Positions 11,505-28,915 of a DNA stretch of 34,244 bases are shown piece after piece. Every line of letters starts with the position of its first letter. Within the stretch, counting starts at the first letter, position 1. The DNA is from a virus. A program made the position numbers and the translations under genes. The notes under the pieces were generated by a model, which made no database searches, had not been told where the DNA came from, and worked only from the letters and a program-made list of their open reading frames with translations. The stretch lies in the IMG/VR virus record IMGVR_UViG_3300030328_001307, positions 942 to 35,185 of that record; one strand, given 5' to 3'.

Positions 11505-13954
11505 TAGTAATAAACCTCGGAAGTAATTGATATAATTCTCATAGGTACAGGCACAGTTTGTGTTATAGTTATAAACGGAGTTTGTGTATATCCTAGTGTA
11601 TGCACATCCTTTTTACCTGTATATCCTACCATTTGTAATCCATTGTCATTAAGTAATACATCATTACCATTAACTTGTATATTATATGTTTTAGATAATT
11701 CTAATACAGTTTTTCCTATTTTACGTGGATAACCATAAGTAGATCCTAATCCTCGTACTGCTTGTCGTGAGTCAATCGGTAATGTTTCTATTTCTACTGT
11801 ATAATTTAAACCTATATCACACGCTGATGCCGGTTGTTGAAAATTAGCTACACCTCCAGAAGTTACTGTTGCAGAACCATAATATCGTATATCATCCGTT
11901 TCAGACGATCCAGATGTAGCGTGCACAATTTTACCTCGTAAATCGGGATTAGTATTAAGACCTGTAAATACTCTGCTTGTTGTAAATTCAACAACAGCAT
12001 TATCAGAGGCAGATACATTTACATCTACAACAATAATATATTCTCCTGATGTACCTGTACTATTAACACTTTGTATAATACACGCTGTAGAATTTACTGT
12101 AAATTTTTCACCTGTTGTTGGTGCGTTTGTAAAACCATCAACTATTAATTGTCTTGCACTTGTTACTGCACCATTTACTTTTGGTGCTCCGTGTGGTTGA
12201 TACGATCCCGATAATGTTTTTGTTACTGAACAATCTGTAGGTAATGCAAACATTGAATTAGATAATTGTTCTAAATAATATTTTGTTGCTCCATTTACAG
12301 TTCGTTCTGTAACAACATATAAAAAAGAAGTTATACCGGTTGCTGATATAAATTTACCATCTGTTTGCCATATACACCATCCTGCTAATTTTTCATTTCT
12401 ATGTCCTGTAAATGCTCCTATAGAACCATCATTATTAACAAATAACAAAAACTGTTCAGTACGCACACCTGTTGATTTAAGTATGGCAGAATCTTTTGGA
12501 CTATCTACTGCTTGTGGTGAAAGATAAGTAAGCACAGTTGATACATAATCTTCTGTTGCTGTGTTATAAAAAAACTCTCGTACTGTTTTACCATTAGGTT
12601 GCACAAAAATTGCCGCACCATCAAATAATTTTGGCATACATTCTTGTGTTGAACCTAAATTACTTTGTCTTTCTATTTTTAAATCTGTTGGTGTAAGTGG
12701 TTTACCTACTTGTGCTTTAAGATAAAACTCACCTGTACTTGTAAATATTTCTAAATTTCTACCAGATACTATATGACGAATTTCATTTATTTGATCAGAT
12801 GAAATAGATATTTGAATAGAATCAGTATCTTCTGCATCACCAACATCAAAATTAAAAAACTCACTGGTTCTACTTCCCGCTATAAAATCAGTAATGGCAC
12901 CACCTCCAAAAAATAATCTTTGTTGATGAAACTTACACGTTGTAGGATAACCATTGTATGCACTATAAACTTGCTCATCCCATTGTTTTGTTGGTGGATG
13001 TCCTATAATTCTTACATTAGTACCCCCACCATCTGCTGAATCTCCACCTGTATCAGAACTACTAGCTGTATAAGTGTATTTATCATCATCTAATACAGTA
13101 ATAGTAAATGTGCCGTTTAAATTACTTGCCGCTAATCCATCACCATCTTCATTAAGTATAGCTTCTGCACCTTCTACAGTTATACTAGCACCATTAGCAA
13201 AGCCGTGTGCAGGATGTAATACTGTTACTGTACCTTCTCCTTCTTCACTTTTTAAAGGGTCATCATCTAATTCTATTCTTATATTTTTTTTTAATGTTCC
13301 TGTTGCTGTAGTAGCATTAGTATATCCTGTAATAAGTATTTCAGATCCGTGATACCTAATACGTGTTCCTACCATACTAGCATCAAAATAATCTGCACTT
13401 GTAACTAATGCTACACCTGTTCCTGCAGTTGTAGTATTTATATCTAAAGTAACATCATCATCTGCAAATTTAAAATAAGGTTGATATACTGCATCTTGAT
13501 TTGTGCTTTCTCTAAATGCAAAATCTGTAAGTGTAAATGTTGTTGCTCCTGTTCTCTTTAATACTTTAGGCAAGTGCGAAGAATGAGCAATTATCATTGA
13601 ATCAGCTTGTTGTGTATATGATAATTTAAACAAAGTATTTGTTGTCCAAGGACAACTTGTAAATGTTTGTAATAATGTGCCATTAGTTGATAAGACTAAT
13701 AACTTTGTGTTTTGAAATGCAACTATATATTCTTGATCTTCATTAAATATAAATGGCTCTATTCTTGTAGATTCACCTAAATCATATCTAAATAAAGTAC
13801 CTTGTCGTCTTTCAACAGGGCCTTGATTTAAAGTAAATACATTGCGTGCTTTTTTTAATGCTTGTTCAAAAGCATCAAGGTCGGTTCTACCAATAACTGT
13901 TTCATCTATTTCTCCTCGAGAAAAACTATTTTGATGAGTTCTCTGTATTGCCAT
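11504..13954 (-). CDS. Tail tubular protein B (T7 gp12-like nozzle)
   Basis: 816 residues from the chosen ATG at 13954 (MAIQRTHQNSFSRGEID). The frame is open upstream to a TTG at 13978, but that start would overlap the preceding gene and adds a non-matching leader. Typical features of the family: N-terminal SFSRGEIDE, FTLNQGPVERRQGT, EDQEYIVAFQNTKLLVLS and the late motif AVRGLGSTYGYPRKIGK. It forms the tail nozzle with the gp11-like protein encoded four bases upstream and carries the fibres. It ends sharing one base with the gp14-like gene. Confidence 0.9.
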   Translation of the reverse strand: MAIQRTHQNSFSRGEIDETVIGRTDLDAFEQALKKARNVFTLNQGPVERRQGTLFRYDLGESTRIEPFIFNEDQEYIVAFQNTKLLVLSTNGTLLQTFTSCPWTTNTLFKLSYTQQADSMIIAHSSHLPKVLKRTGATTFTLTDFAFRESTNQDAVYQPYFKFADDDVTLDINTTTAGTGVALVTSADYFDASMVGTRIRYHGSEILITGYTNATTATGTLKKNIRIELDDDPLKSEEGEGTVTVLHPAHGFANGASITVEGAEAILNEDGDGLAASNLNGTFTITVLDDDKYTYTASSSDTGGDSADGGGTNVRIIGHPPTKQWDEQVYSAYNGYPTTCKFHQQRLFFGGGAITDFIAGSRTSEFFNFDVGDAEDTDSIQISISSDQINEIRHIVSGRNLEIFTSTGEFYLKAQVGKPLTPTDLKIERQSNLGSTQECMPKLFDGAAIFVQPNGKTVREFFYNTATEDYVSTVLTYLSPQAVDSPKDSAILKSTGVRTEQFLLFVNNDGSIGAFTGHRNEKLAGWCIWQTDGKFISATGITSFLYVVTERTVNGATKYYLEQLSNSMFALPTDCSVTKTLSGSYQPHGAPKVNGAVTSARQLIVDGFTNAPTTGEKFTVNSTACIIQSVNSTGTSGEYIIVVDVNVSASDNAVVEFTTSRVFTGLNTNPDLRGKIVHATSGSSETDDIRYYGSATVTSGGVANFQQPASACDIGLNYTVEIETLPIDSRQAVRGLGSTYGYPRKIGKTVLELSKTYNIQVNGNDVLLNDNGLQMVGYTGKKDVHTLGYTQTPFITITQTVPVPMRIISITSEVYY

Positions 13955-19216: not shown

Positions 19217-20722
19217 TTACCTCCTTCTTTCATAAATGTCTTTAGGTTTACCACTAAAAACATCAAAATTACGTTTCGCTATTATAGGTGTACTATATTT
19301 CTTACCAATCGTCAACGACCTACCTTCTCCTGCACCTAATAATAAATATTGAAGTGCGTCGTGTATGTGTGAAAATCTATTCTTATTTGGGCGTTCATCA
19401 TAGCGTTCTCCCGATACTTGTAGTCGTCTATAATGATAACCACCTGCAAATCCTCTAATTAAATTATTACAACTTTTATCTATAAGAATACCGGATTCAC
19501 CATCAACCATTCTTGTTAATGTGGCGTTCACACTTTCTAAACGAAGTGTAACATCATTACTAGGTGCAGGTCGTGCAGTAATACCTTTACCTCGCAGTAT
19601 TTGAAATGGTGTACTTTCATCTGTTTGTACTCTATGATCACCGGCAGGATCACCAAATATATAAAAAGGTCTAGGATGATATCTTGCCATAGATTGTTTC
19701 ATTAAATCAGAAAACTTAACTATACCCATATCTTCAGCTACAAGTTCTTCTAATACTATCCACCTTGTTCTTATTTTTTGTGCAAATACACAGGCAGGAG
19801 TTAATCCAAAATCTATTCCTACATAAATAGGTAATGATTCAGCAATAGCTAATTCACCTTTAGCTACGTGTACATCTTGTCTAAATGCTTCATATACAGG
19901 TTTACCATCCTCTACCTGTCCTAGTTTATTTAATACATATACATCTATCCACGATTTTGTTTTACCTCTAATAATATTACTGTAATAATTTGGAGTTAAG
20001 TTGTTTTGATTCTCTGATTGATTATACTTTTTATATTCAACCACCTGATTATTCTTATCTTTAATTTCTTCCATAGCAGGTGGTTGATTAAAAAATTTCC
20101 AGTTATCTGGTTTAATTAACATCTTTGCTTCTTGTTTACTTATGTAGTCAGGTATAATAGTTTCACCTGCCATTATTGCCCACCAATGATCGGTATCAGG
20201 TGGATTGGTATCGCAAACGACTCCATACCAAGTTGGGCCACCATCACGCATAGATGGAAAACGACCAACACGCATAGAACAAGCATCAACAATACTTTTA
20301 GGAATCTCTCGTGCTTCATTTATCCATACTCCCGTTAATTCAAGAGATAACAGTTTCTTTACATCTTCTGGTCTATCAAGAGCCAGAAAGATTACCTCAC
20401 AGTCAATATCTCCCTTTTTAAGTTTGTGTGTGTAAGGTACACTCCAAGTAAAACCACCCCAATCATCTTCGGGAAACCAATCTAACCAAGTCTTGATTGT
20501 AGTTGTTTTAAGCTGTGGATTTGTGTTACGAATAACTGCCCAACGGGTTTTACGTATTCCTTCTGGATTTGGTTTTTGTGATATGGCTCGTTTAATTATT
20601 TCAATACAACAAGCTACAGATTTACCACTTCCTACAGGGCCACGTATTCCTCTAAAGAAAGTATCATTTTTTAGAAATTCTTTAACAACCTGTCCATCAG
20701 GTTTATAAGTTAGTGATGCCAT
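19217..20722 (-). CDS. terL: Terminase large subunit
   Basis: 501 residues. ATPase: Walker A GPVGSGKS at residues 28-35, Walker B region GVWINEAREI at 131-140 with the catalytic Glu at 136, and coupling segment VVCDTNPPDTDHWW near 168-181. Nuclease: acidic residues in VGIDFGLTPA (Asp304), FGDPAGDHR (Asp358) and HIHDALQYLL (Asp455). It packages DNA into the prohead with the small subunit encoded far upstream at 23679-24065. The start overlaps the preceding small gene by 20 bases. Other minus-strand and plus-strand frames here are shadows. Confidence 0.95.
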   Translation of the reverse strand: MASLTYKPDGQVVKEFLKNDTFFRGIRGPVGSGKSVACCIEIIKRAISQKPNPEGIRKTRWAVIRNTNPQLKTTTIKTWLDWFPEDDWGGFTWSVPYTHKLKKGDIDCEVIFLALDRPEDVKKLLSLELTGVWINEAREIPKSIVDACSMRVGRFPSMRDGGPTWYGVVCDTNPPDTDHWWAIMAGETIIPDYISKQEAKMLIKPDNWKFFNQPPAMEEIKDKNNQVVEYKKYNQSENQNNLTPNYYSNIIRGKTKSWIDVYVLNKLGQVEDGKPVYEAFRQDVHVAKGELAIAESLPIYVGIDFGLTPACVFAQKIRTRWIVLEELVAEDMGIVKFSDLMKQSMARYHPRPFYIFGDPAGDHRVQTDESTPFQILRGKGITARPAPSNDVTLRLESVNATLTRMVDGESGILIDKSCNNLIRGFAGGYHYRRLQVSGERYDERPNKNRFSHIHDALQYLLLGAGEGRSLTIGKKYSTPIIAKRNFDVFSGKPKDIYERRR

Positions 20723-23663: not shown

Positions 23664-23692
23664 AATATATGACTTGTGCTACTTTAGGTCAA
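23664..23692 (-). promoter_or_regulatory. Candidate late promoter
   Basis: Minus strand TTGACC, 17-base spacer, TATATT: five of six matches to each sigma70 hexamer with ideal spacing. It overlaps the last codons of the small-terminase gene and would start transcription near 23657, ahead of the 17-base motif, the hairpin/T-run and the late genes. Host RNA polymerase use fits the lack of a phage polymerase gene. Confidence 0.5.
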
Positions 23693-24065
23693 TGTTAATA
23701 CTAAAATCACCCTTGACCAAGTGTTGGTGCTTATCTGGTGCTTTGAATCCTGCCCTGTCAAGTATATCCTTACTAGCTTCTAACTGTACGTACTCTGACT
23801 TAGCACCAACACACAAATCAAGTAACCTAGACTGTGCCTTGACTGCACTCATTCCCAAGTTATGGGTGATTTGTTCAAACATATACTTCTGTACTTCTGG
23901 ATTCCGTAGCATACGGCTTGCACTTACTCTGGAACTATTTCCCTTGTATCCTGCGACTTTACTTGCTTCAGTTATTGTGCATCCTGTAGCTACGAGTGTA
24001 TCGACTAGTTTCTTTGCTTTAGTAGATATGACTTTAGTCTTTAATGCAACGGACATACTCTTCAT
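23679..24065 (-). CDS. terS: Terminase small subunit
   Basis: 128 residues. An N-terminal helix-turn-helix is visible at about residues 18-62 (KLVDTLVATGCTITEASKVA, then SRVSASRMLRNPEVQKYMFE), the standard small-terminase pattern. It is followed by oligomerisation-type helices (SAVKAQSRLLDLCVGAKSEY, LEASKDILDRAGFKAPDKHQ). It recognises the packaging site and loads the large subunit. It is separated from the large subunit gene by six small or basic genes. A second in-frame ATG at 24056 is the better start if the promoter at 24063-24091 is used, because that promoter's -10 includes the first ATG. Confidence 0.85.
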   Translation of the reverse strand: MKSMSVALKTKVISTKAKKLVDTLVATGCTITEASKVAGYKGNSSRVSASRMLRNPEVQKYMFEQITHNLGMSAVKAQSRLLDLCVGAKSEYVQLEASKDILDRAGFKAPDKHQHLVKGDFSINIDLK

Positions 24066-24091
24066 ATATCAAGTACTGACGAAAAAGTCAA
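24063..24091 (-). promoter_or_regulatory. Candidate promoter of the small terminase gene
   Basis: Minus strand TTGACT, 17 bases, TATATG. The predicted start point falls at about 24056, the A of the second in-frame ATG, which would give a leaderless message. Five of six -35 matches, four of six -10 matches. Confidence 0.4.
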
Positions 24092-24117
24092 CATACCTAT
24101 TGTAGCAATGATTCCTA

Positions 24118-24140
24118 AACTACTCTGAAGAAGAGTAGTT
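24118..24140. repeat. 9-bp inverted repeat upstream of the small terminase promoter
   Basis: AACTACTCT and AGAGTAGTT flank a 5-base GAAGA spacer, perfect pairing. It is 27 bases upstream of the -35 candidate. Could be an operator or a small hairpin; not followed by a T run in either direction. Confidence 0.55.
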
Positions 24141-24170
24141 AAGTAATCCTAACTAGCCCTGCAGGCGGCT

Positions 24171-24187
24171 GTAATACCCAGTATTAC
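24171..24187. repeat. 7-bp inverted repeat
   Basis: GTAATAC, CCA loop, GTATTAC, perfect. It lies between the 24118 hairpin and the large structured element, in the 437-base gene-free divergent region. Confidence 0.5.
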
Positions 24188-24205
24188 TAATGATATATGA
24201 ACAAC

Positions 24206-24435
24206 AGAGTTTATCACACTACCAAGCCACCCTTTATTTTAATTTTTGGGTGGTGAATCTAGTACCAGACCCTACGGCGGGAAATTTACGGATTCCCCTA
24301 ATTTTATGCGTTAGAAGGTGGGCGTGCTTTATTAGCCCTCCGGGCCACGCCCTCATTATATTAAGGGAAGGCATAAAATTAGACTAACGCCTCCGAAATT
24401 TGTCTGGTACTAGATTCAGTAGTGTGAGAAACTCT
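24206..24435. ncRNA. Large structured element (three-way junction fold), unknown class
   Basis: No gene lies here. Pairings read directly: P1 24206-24222 with 24419-24435 (16 of 17 paired, one A-G mismatch); P2 CCACCC 24227-24232 with GGGTGG 24248-24253; P3 24255-24270 with 24402-24417, 16 bp perfect; P4 24282-24292 with 24392-24401, 10 bp and one bulged A; P5 24298-24309 with 24371-24382, 12 bp; P6 24320-24326 with 24346-24352 (GGGCGTG/CACGCCC); P7 GCCC/GGGC 24335-24345. An alternative 7-bp helix 24308-24314 with 24384-24390 competes with or crosses P5. Strand of any transcript is unclear. It could equally be a DNA element such as a replication origin or packaging site. It does not match a ribozyme or riboswitch class that I can recall. 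Confidence 0.6.
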
Positions 24436-24502: not shown

Positions 24503-25036
24503 ATGAAAAATGTTAAATCAAATCTTAAAGTTGGTGACACTCATCCTGACTTTATTAAATCTAAAAAACCTAAAGTTACTGAATTCCAAGCAGTAGCAGA
24601 TACTATCATCAAAATGGTAGATGATAACTACATAGTTACAAATTCATTTGACCCTGCAAAAATTCTTGTAGGTGGTATTTGTAATTCACTTCACGACTTC
24701 TTCATTCCTAATGCAGAAAGTTGGCATGAAAGATGTGTAACTAAAGCTCAAGAATTAAATGAGCTTAAAGATACAAAGCGTGAACAAGACCAAGAAATCG
24801 CAGGTGATACTCAAACGCGTCAAGATAAAATTAATCTTCAAGACGCTATTGATAACACACGTGAAAACTTCGCTACTGCACAAGAAGACGTTGCAGTTGC
24901 AAAGAAGAAAATAGAGCAACTTGAAACTATGCTTGAAGAAATGAGTGCAGTTTATCAGACCTCTTTTCAAGAAACTTGGGTTCCATCTAAAGACAAAAAG
25001 AAGAACGTTCAACTTCCTAAGCGTCTTCAAAAATAA
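24503..25036 (+). CDS. Unknown coiled-coil protein, first plus-strand gene
   Basis: 177 residues, MKNVKSNLKVGDTHPDFIKS. A globular N-terminal half (VTEFQAVADTIIKMVDDNYI, KILVGGICNSLHDFF) is followed by a coiled coil at about residues 80-155 (KAQELNELKDTKREQDQEI, AKKKIEQLETMLEEMSAVYQ) and a basic end (KDKKKNVQLPKRLQK). No family recognised. It has a good ribosome site (AAGGAG) and is closed by its own terminator at 25046-25083, so it is probably a single-gene, strongly expressed early transcript. Codons ending in C are more frequent than in later early genes. Confidence 0.8.
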   Translation: MKNVKSNLKVGDTHPDFIKSKKPKVTEFQAVADTIIKMVDDNYIVTNSFDPAKILVGGICNSLHDFFIPNAESWHERCVTKAQELNELKDTKREQDQEIAGDTQTRQDKINLQDAIDNTRENFATAQEDVAVAKKKIEQLETMLEEMSAVYQTSFQETWVPSKDKKKNVQLPKRLQK

Positions 25037-25108: not shown

Positions 25109-25456
25109 ATGAAAGTTGGAATTATCGGTAGTCGTTCATTCGTAAATACAATGGACGGTTATAAAATAATCAAATCTATTCAAGATAAAATAAAATTCAC
25201 AACAATAATTAGTGGTGGTGCTCGTGGTGCAGATACAATCGCCAAGAAATACGCCAGAGAATTTGGAGTTAAATATATTGAATTTCCTGCCGATTGGAAT
25301 AAATATGGTAAACAAGCAGGATATCTCCGAAATGTTGATATTGTGAAAAATAGTGATTTAATTATTGCCTTTTGGGATGGTAAATCACGTGGTACTGGTC
25401 ATAGTATTCGTATTGCAGATAAATTAAAAAGACCTGTTATAATAGAATACGTATAA
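25109..25456 (+). CDS. SLOG-family (DUF2493/YspA-like) nucleotide-binding protein
   Basis: 115 residues. GSRS at residues 7-10, SGGARGAD at 35-42, FPADWNKYGKQAGYLRN at 59-75 and IIAFWDGKSRGTGHSI at 85-100 are the typical motifs of the small stand-alone SLOG/DUF2493 family, which has a Rossmann-like fold and is thought to bind nucleotides or nucleotide-derived ligands. Frequent in phages, cellular role mostly unproven. It stands alone between two intrinsic terminators, with a GGAG ribosome site. Possible jobs: sensing or sequestering a host defence signal, or nucleotide metabolism; both inference. Confidence 0.88.
   Translation: MKVGIIGSRSFVNTMDGYKIIKSIQDKIKFTTIISGGARGADTIAKKYAREFGVKYIEFPADWNKYGKQAGYLRNVDIVKNSDLIIAFWDGKSRGTGHSIRIADKLKRPVIIEYV
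25413..25443 (+). promoter_or_regulatory. Weak promoter candidate at the end of the SLOG gene
   Basis: TTGCAG, 19 bases, TATAAT at 25438-25443. The perfect -10 is attractive but spacing is long and the terminator at 25457-25500 follows immediately. Confidence 0.2.
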
Positions 25457-25500
25457 CATAAAAAAAGGTAGGCCTCTAGTAGGTTCTACCTTTTTTTATG
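25457..25500 (+). terminator. Strong intrinsic terminator after the SLOG gene
   Basis: Perfect 15-bp stem CATAAAAAAAGGTAG with CTACCTTTTTTTATG around a 14-base loop. The 3' arm contains seven T, and the 5' arm gives the same on the minus strand, so it should work in both directions. Confidence 0.85.
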
Positions 25501-25529
25501 TATGCGTTGTGAAGGAAAGTGACCCACCC

Positions 25530-28063: not shown

Positions 28064-28440
28064 ATAAATATATTGTTGACTTAAAATTTGATCGCAAGAC
28101 TTTAAAGTTTAGTAAATCACCAAACACTTGCGAGTTCATTGATTTTCATTTAGATAACCCAAAGGTTTGGGATCTGTACCTAAAGTTTGCAACTGATATG
28201 GTACATCACGGACACAAAAAATTATCAAGTGAAATGCTTATCAATCGTGTTCGTTGGGAAACAATGGTTAATACTACTGACAAACAATTTAAAATAAATA
28301 ACAACCACAAACCTTTTTATGCAAGACTATTGCTATCTTTACCTAGGTTTAAAGAAACAAAGTTCCTTGAAGTTAGACAAAGTTGTGCAGATGACTTATC
28401 ATATTCCGAATGTGAAATATTAATAAGTCCTTATGTATAG
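28060..28440 (+). CDS. Conserved phage protein of unknown function (NNNH-x-P-x-YAR type)
   Basis: 126 residues. KVWDLYLKFATDMVHHGHKK, LINRVRWETMVNTTDKQF and KINNNHKPFYARLLLSLPRF form a pattern I recognise from conserved phage and prophage proteins near recombination or replication genes; no function has been assigned that I know of. Strong GGAGGT ribosome site. It overlaps the regulator gene downstream by eight bases. Confidence 0.75.
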   Translation: MNKYIVDLKFDRKTLKFSKSPNTCEFIDFHLDNPKVWDLYLKFATDMVHHGHKKLSSEMLINRVRWETMVNTTDKQFKINNNHKPFYARLLLSLPRFKETKFLEVRQSCADDLSYSECEILISPYV

Positions 28441-28915
28441 AGTTGCAGTTAAAGAACTTCAAGAAAGACGACAACACCTAGGATTATCTTCGCAAGAAGT
28501 TGCAGAAAAACTAGGTGTTTCCGATTCGTTAATATCGCTTTGGGAATGTGGTAAAAAGCAACCAAGTAGCACTATGTTTTTTAATTGGGTAACTGTGCTT
28601 GGCTTTAACTTTATTCTTAATGTACATCAATCTCAAATCCCAAAAACTTTTGAGCCAAGCTACGATACAAAGCGTTGGATCACGGAAGAATTTGGAGAAA
28701 GGTATAACTATGAACAAGAACTTAAAATCTTTGTCAACCATTATCGGGCAGGTGGAACAATTAAATCAGATTGGCAATACGCTTTCCGATCTTGGTTATT
28801 GCGTTCAAAAAAGTTCCAATCCAATACAAGTCAAACCACCAAGAATACTGAAGAACGTCGTGAAAGAATCAACAATGTCTTTGCTATCAGCGATAAAACA
28901 AAACAAAGTAGATGA
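28433..28915 (+). CDS. XRE-type HTH protein with replication-protein-like C-terminal part
   Basis: 160 residues. Residues about 7-60 form an XRE/Cro-type helix-turn-helix (LQERRQHLGLSSQEVAEKLG, VSDSLISLWECGKKQPSSTM). The second half, TKRWITEEFGERYNYEQELK then GGTIKSDWQYAFRSWLLRSK, resembles the W-x-x-x-F-R-x-W-L-R end found in phage replication initiators and DnaT/DnaD-like proteins. So it may be a DNA-binding protein that organises replication, not just a repressor; this is inference. The last ~200 bases overlap another frame with its own ribosome site (see 28710-29315). Confidence 0.75.
   Translation: MYRVAVKELQERRQHLGLSSQEVAEKLGVSDSLISLWECGKKQPSSTMFFNWVTVLGFNFILNVHQSQIPKTFEPSYDTKRWITEEFGERYNYEQELKIFVNHYRAGGTIKSDWQYAFRSWLLRSKKFQSNTSQTTKNTEERRERINNVFAISDKTKQSR

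Follow-up and report, generated by a model that had tools for sequence, protein, structure and literature searches.

Structured RNAs encoded by phages have been described in several systems. The pRNA of phi29 is a noncoding RNA built on a three-way junction, in which the sequence is free to vary while the fold is kept, and it is tied to packaging (PMC12670572). The cabRNA of staphylococcal phages is a structured RNA of ~400 nt that starts inside terS and runs into terL; it illustrates that a structured RNA of the terS region is able to matter for host defence (PMC10686824). The ornate large RNAs GOLLD and ROOL, found in phages and prophages, are modular, with domains that diverge separately, and their function is unknown (PMC12286853).

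Here, we analyzed a structured element located 140 nt upstream of the leftward-transcribed terS gene in a stretch of viral DNA of 34,244 nucleotides (the window), together with its relatives. The closest system in logic is the phi29 pRNA, which preserves its fold but not its sequence; the element likewise contains a three-way junction and has a packaging gene, terS, as its neighbour. Unlike phi29-type phages, which have their own packaging ATPase and no TerS, the phages studied here combine a TerS with a general-type TerL, and the relatives of the element are up to ~500 nt long. We found no equivalent of the loop-loop pairing of pRNA when the P3 loop (AAAAATTAAAATAAA) was compared by eye with the apical loop (GGA/GAA), and P3/apical loop complementarity is not kept across the window and the relatives L084 and L007 (by eye, in predicted folds). 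As for cabRNA, the element is structured and belongs to the terS region, and the window TerS is distantly related to the phi11-type TerS (32%); however, cabRNA lies inside coding sequence, whereas the element is upstream of terS, is largely noncoding in the window, and does not correspond to a sense RNA running from within terS into terL. Like GOLLD and ROOL, it is predicted to be a large, structured, and modular phage RNA, but it consists mostly of one long hairpin beside terS and is not near tRNAs.

The lack of an Rfam match also distinguishes the element from phi29-type pRNA and from GOLLD/ROOL. Rfam 15 at the gathering threshold returned no family for the window and 20 relatives, matches to the element at E values up to 10 were at chance level only, and a tRNA/tmRNA search found none, in keeping with the sequence-only reading, which had matched it to no known RNA class. 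A literature search on pelagiphage hairpins or noncoding RNAs found nothing relevant, and the transcriptome paper on HTVC022P and HTVC027P does not mention antisense or non-coding RNA. With neither an Rfam match nor a literature find, the element appears to be uncatalogued; its host phages are marine and of the SAR11 type.

Fold and genomic context of the element

When folded as RNA, the element has a minimum free energy of -94.8 kcal/mol on the plus strand and -95.7 kcal/mol on the minus strand, against shuffle means of about -56 kcal/mol. None of 200 dinucleotide shuffles per strand matched these energies (z = -8.3 and -8.7, respectively), so that the pairing does exceed chance, as had been proposed from the letters alone. 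All seven helices listed in that proposal (P1, P2, P3, P2b, P4, P5, and P6) are present (Table 1). The seven-helix model has energies of -90.2 and -88.1 kcal/mol, i.e. 5-8 kcal/mol above the minimum of the respective strand, and it is the predicted fold of the nearest relative, L084 (on its plus strand). A hairpin similar to P3, on the 3' side of the terS strand, recurs across many relatives.

Table 1 Features of the element and its surroundings (window coordinates).
Feature	Position	Strand	Remarks
terS, terminase small subunit	23679-24065	-	PHROG 2538 and 51; constant neighbour
terS promoter, TTGACT-17-TATATG	24063-24091	-	sigma70-like; conserved in close relatives
Flank, terS promoter to element	24103-24205	.	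nearly identical to L084
17-bp dyad GTAATACCCAGTATTAC	24171-24187		within the flank
Whole structured element	24206-24435	-	folds and family strand tests (terS strand favoured family-wide)
Outer helix P1, terS-side arm	24206-24222	-	pairs with 24419-24435; 7+9 pairs, one A/G mismatch
Side hairpin P3	24226-24254	-	forms three-way junction; fold
Inner helix P2, terS-side arm	24255-24270	-	perfect 16 bp with 24402-24417
GC-rich insertion	24271-24281	-	in window; missing from L084 and L007 (alignments)
P2b, terS-side arm	24282-24292	-	10 pairs with 24392-24401, one bulge
P4, terS-side arm	24298-24309	-	12 bp with 24371-24382; sequence also in L007
Apical hairpin P5 with nested P6	24320-24352	-	8-nt bulge; near-invariant module 'A'
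P5	24320-24326 with 24346-24352		7 bp
P6, GCCC/GGGC	24335-24345		4 pairs; nested within P5
P4, gene-side arm	24371-24382	-	fold and L084 comparison
P2b, gene-side arm	24392-24401	-	fold
Inner helix P2, gene-side arm	24402-24417	-	fold and L084 comparison
Outer helix P1, gene-side arm	24419-24435	-	fold and L084 comparison
Divergent first gene of plus-strand block	24503-25036	+	177 aa, without known family

Farther down the minus strand that carries terS are the genes for TerL (19217-20722), a T7-like portal, tail proteins, and an internal virion protein. Among isolates, Pelagibacter phage EXVC031P "Hodr" is the closest (83% identity in TerL). The segment, which had been described as gene-free, does lie between divergent genes, but it is crossed by an unsupported 65-aa frame (24190-24387, plus strand). 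No sigma70-like promoter reading into the hairpin was enriched on either strand, and only the terS promoter stood out; the window's divergent gene likewise showed none. No intrinsic terminators were found.

Several other features of this region were recorded. The flank between the terS promoter and the element is better conserved relative to L084 than the neighbouring gene (71% at the amino acid level); it also carries a small hairpin, and its dyad GTAATACCCAGTATTAC resembles an operator. A strong local palindrome (25449-25507; score 31, E = 9e-6), possibly a terminator, is found at the end of a SLOG-like gene (25109-25456). An HTH protein with a weak DnaT-like domain is encoded at 28433-28915 on the plus strand, adjoining a RecE-like exonuclease and an SSB. 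According to a scan of its genes, the phage seemingly encodes neither a DNA polymerase nor an RNA polymerase of its own. We rejected the possibility of hairpin promoters served by an N4-like virion RNA polymerase, as the large virion proteins tested carry no polymerase domain.

Recurrence at one site and sequence turnover with kept pairing

Relatives were collected by scanning IMG/VR with the TerS query, which yielded 80 loci (the first set) comprising 61 non-redundant regions, and by two more scans with diverged TerS queries, which yielded 67 additional non-redundant regions (the replication set). The resulting 128 non-redundant relatives include the IMG/VR loci, the window, and the cultured phage Hodr. 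Hairpins were scored by strand-symmetric self-complementarity, with the best of 1,220 dinucleotide shuffles as the threshold. A hairpin above this threshold occurs at the same site in 70 of the 128 relatives (35/61 in the first set and 35/67 in the replication set) and extends over up to ~240 aligned positions; it is common but not universal, since many regions score at shuffle level. Folding z values in the relatives range from about -6 to -23. Among the 28 contigs that reach 7 kb or more (281 kb in all), a strong palindrome is located upstream of terS in 13 and elsewhere in none. The inverted repeat of Hodr (L087; OQ414635) spans 694 bases (11942-12635 of that genome; E = 2e-50). No such inverted repeat was found in phage MEP301, in which terS is inside an operon. 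The Hodr repeat was also seen to extend into the coding start of terS, which aligns inversely with the interior of the divergent gene.

Comparison with L084 reveals how the sequence changes. P1 and P2 together differ by 9 two-sided changes (4 in P1 and 5 in P2, which remains a perfect helix) and by 0 one-sided changes; P2b reads CGGA/TCCG in the window and TTGA/TCAA in L084, and P4 and P5 are unchanged. The apical module 'A' is common to the window and L007, the outer helices of which differ. A second apical module, 'B', is enclosed by two outer stems that clearly differ. Among its pairs, 11 cells are two-sided and 0 one-sided (0/500 shuffles), and its covariance model finds L009 (E = 6.5e-9) and the Hodr apex (E = 4e-4). 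A conserved CCTACTT apical loop is limited to some members. In the Hodr clade (six members), pairing is preserved in 92% of cells for 160 consensus pairs, of which 32 show two-sided changes, compared with a shuffle mean of 10 (0/500) and 5-10 for slid controls, over which the structure is favoured because it was derived from the same alignment. Some of these covarying pairs fall within the coding start of the divergent gene. In both L030 and L036, a change in the terS promoter spacer appears, by eye, to accompany the change on the gene side.

The helices thus covary in relatives (window versus L084, module B, and the Hodr clade), and such compensatory base changes are expected of a structured RNA, in line with the new phage RNA suggested by the sequence-only reading. 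Part of the covariation could come from arm-to-arm copying, which fits the scarcity of one-sided changes in module B and L084. Taken together, the element is genuine, widespread, and fast-evolving: it occupies a single site, repeats one layout of outer helix, inner helix, 3'-side hairpin, and apical module, and combines very fast sequence turnover with compensatory change.

Of the 39 first-set hairpins scored, roughly half have an arm that overlaps the divergent gene's coding start, over as many as ~150 bases; the gene starts come from automatic assignment, and a few are doubtful (e.g. L018 and L050). For the window, as for roughly half of the first set, the start of this gene falls outside the hairpin. 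The terS-side arm of Hodr, L017, L036, and L059 still carries a decayed inverted copy of the ribosome-binding site and start codon of the divergent gene, indicating that inverted copying onto the terS side occurred in several lineages. We infer the molecular route: the adjacent gene start would be copied in inverted orientation onto the terS side and would then decay under selection for pairing, a scheme of which part is shown. Hairpins of up to ~200 pairs, with arms overlapping a protein gene, have kept their pairing during sequence turnover, which illustrates how a structured RNA may escape sequence searches and grow by inverted duplication.

Strand asymmetry and alternative explanations

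The hairpins favour one strand. Opposed mismatches in the stems are wobble-like when read on the terS strand (G-U:A-C of 90:31 for the first set, 163:36 for the replication set); by stem part, the ratio is 94:37 in noncoding and 78:51 in coding stretches, and the G-U excess is modest once mismatch base use itself is fitted (253 versus 232 expected). The folding energy is lower on the terS strand in 34/39 first-set and 38/38 replication-set loci. After correction for composition with shuffles, the preference holds in 33/39 (p = 7e-6) and 36/38 loci (p = 1e-10), counts that are non-independent because the loci are related; by sequence clusters, 16 of 19 in the first set favour the terS strand (p = 0.002). 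Random windows of the same contigs show no strand preference (46:60). Taken by itself, the window shows only a small raw difference between strands (-1.8 kcal/mol). Strand-biased mutation was rejected as the cause, there being no matching skew at bulged bases of the same stems (G 365, C 350) or at terS fourfold sites (G 586, C 569; A 1161, T 1152).

This asymmetry in wobbles and energy indicates selection on a single strand, most likely of an RNA directed towards terS. Such an RNA predicts the asymmetry, as does single-stranded DNA of the terS strand, whereas a duplex DNA site, an early mRNA leader, or mere arm copying does not. Among the three guesses made from the sequence, the covariation and the terS-strand asymmetry therefore favour a new phage noncoding RNA and speak against a duplex cos/pac site or duplex origin. 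It is quite probable that the element exists as RNA as such, and our preferred reading, which we hold at somewhat better than even, is a structured noncoding RNA of the terS (window minus) strand, tied to terS. These long hairpins form a large and unnamed family, to which the element belongs and which is very probably one of phage RNAs.

In single-stranded DNA, G-T is also more stable than A-C, so the same sign of asymmetry could arise there. Accordingly, the hairpin might act on the exposed terS strand of the DNA as a replication or primosome-loading origin, or as a recombination or packaging signal, which we consider unlikely. The asymmetry fits this explanation as well as it fits RNA, the hairpin has no promoter reading into it, and the phage encodes the SSB, the RecE-like exonuclease, and the HTH protein with a weak DnaT-like domain. 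However, no iterons, nick site, or replication initiator gene could be tied to the hairpin, and its constant partner is terS, not replication genes.

Template switching maintains quasi-palindromes, inverted copies of neighbouring sequence arising and becoming homogenised. The element could then be a mutational by-product, i.e. functionless quasi-palindromes at a divergent junction, grown and homogenised by template switching or fold-back copying. The decayed inverted gene-start copies in several lineages are expected under this explanation, and the two-sided changes without one-sided ones (module B and window versus L084) fit arm-to-arm copying. In contrast to template-switch quasi-palindromes, the hairpins exhibit strand-specific wobbles, which nearby base composition does not explain, and conserved apical modules inside different outer stems; neither these features nor the restriction to one place are predicted by copying, and we regard this origin as rather improbable.

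There is little likelihood that the element is a structured 5' leader, on the plus strand, through which the translation or decay of the divergent early gene is controlled. Hairpins of the Hodr type do span the ribosome-binding site and start codon of that gene, but wobble pairs and energy favour the opposite strand and in the window, as well as in roughly half of the first-set loci, the gene start is outside the hairpin.

Packaging sites are often located in or beside terS, and 11 of the 80 first-set contigs start inside or just beyond the region (about 4 end equally close across terS; hand count), but a duplex cos/pac site or fixed genome end is very improbable, as the starts are scattered without one shared position, long inverted repeats hamper assembly, and a duplex site predicts no strand asymmetry. 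The contigs in question are L004, L011, L016, L021, L025, L033, L037, L049, L058, L067, and L073. Where these contigs start, assembly or coverage probably broke off at the inverted repeat, and the starts may be physical ends; a fixed end was rejected because they lie close by, yet not at one point.

Candidate role and related palindromes

For the preferred reading, a structured RNA of the terS strand, its constant partner, terS, and its position on the late strand point to a putative function in late expression or packaging. The RNA would be present late in infection and would be recognised via its fold instead of its sequence. Tentatively, it could serve the neighbouring late/packaging operon in one of two ways: transcripts in the terS direction would carry it as a structured upstream segment, or it would act in trans as a packaging-associated RNA. 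With terS as its constant neighbour, a link to packaging may hold. The wider proposal, to which we give slightly less than even weight, is a new class of noncoding RNA: a giant hairpin beside terS in which the fold itself would be selected, built and rebuilt by inverted copying of the neighbouring gene and carrying apical modules that can be exchanged. Such an RNA would be required for late expression or for packaging, or else act against a host sensor, and it would be common across a large group of SAR11-type podoviruses. Since the element occurs in a cultured phage-host pair (Hodr and HTCC1062), the existence, strand, and ends of the RNA are directly testable.

Palindromes were also noted in two other phages. 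In Pasteurella phage Pmp11 (L090; OR544128), a 343-base imperfect palindrome (13453-13795; E = 8e-15) spans the starts of divergent cI-like and cro-like genes and may be the record of an inverted duplication. In Burkholderia phage BcepC6B (L088; NC_005887), positions 1-98 form a near-palindrome, self-complementary at 78 of 98 positions, upstream of the terS gene block.
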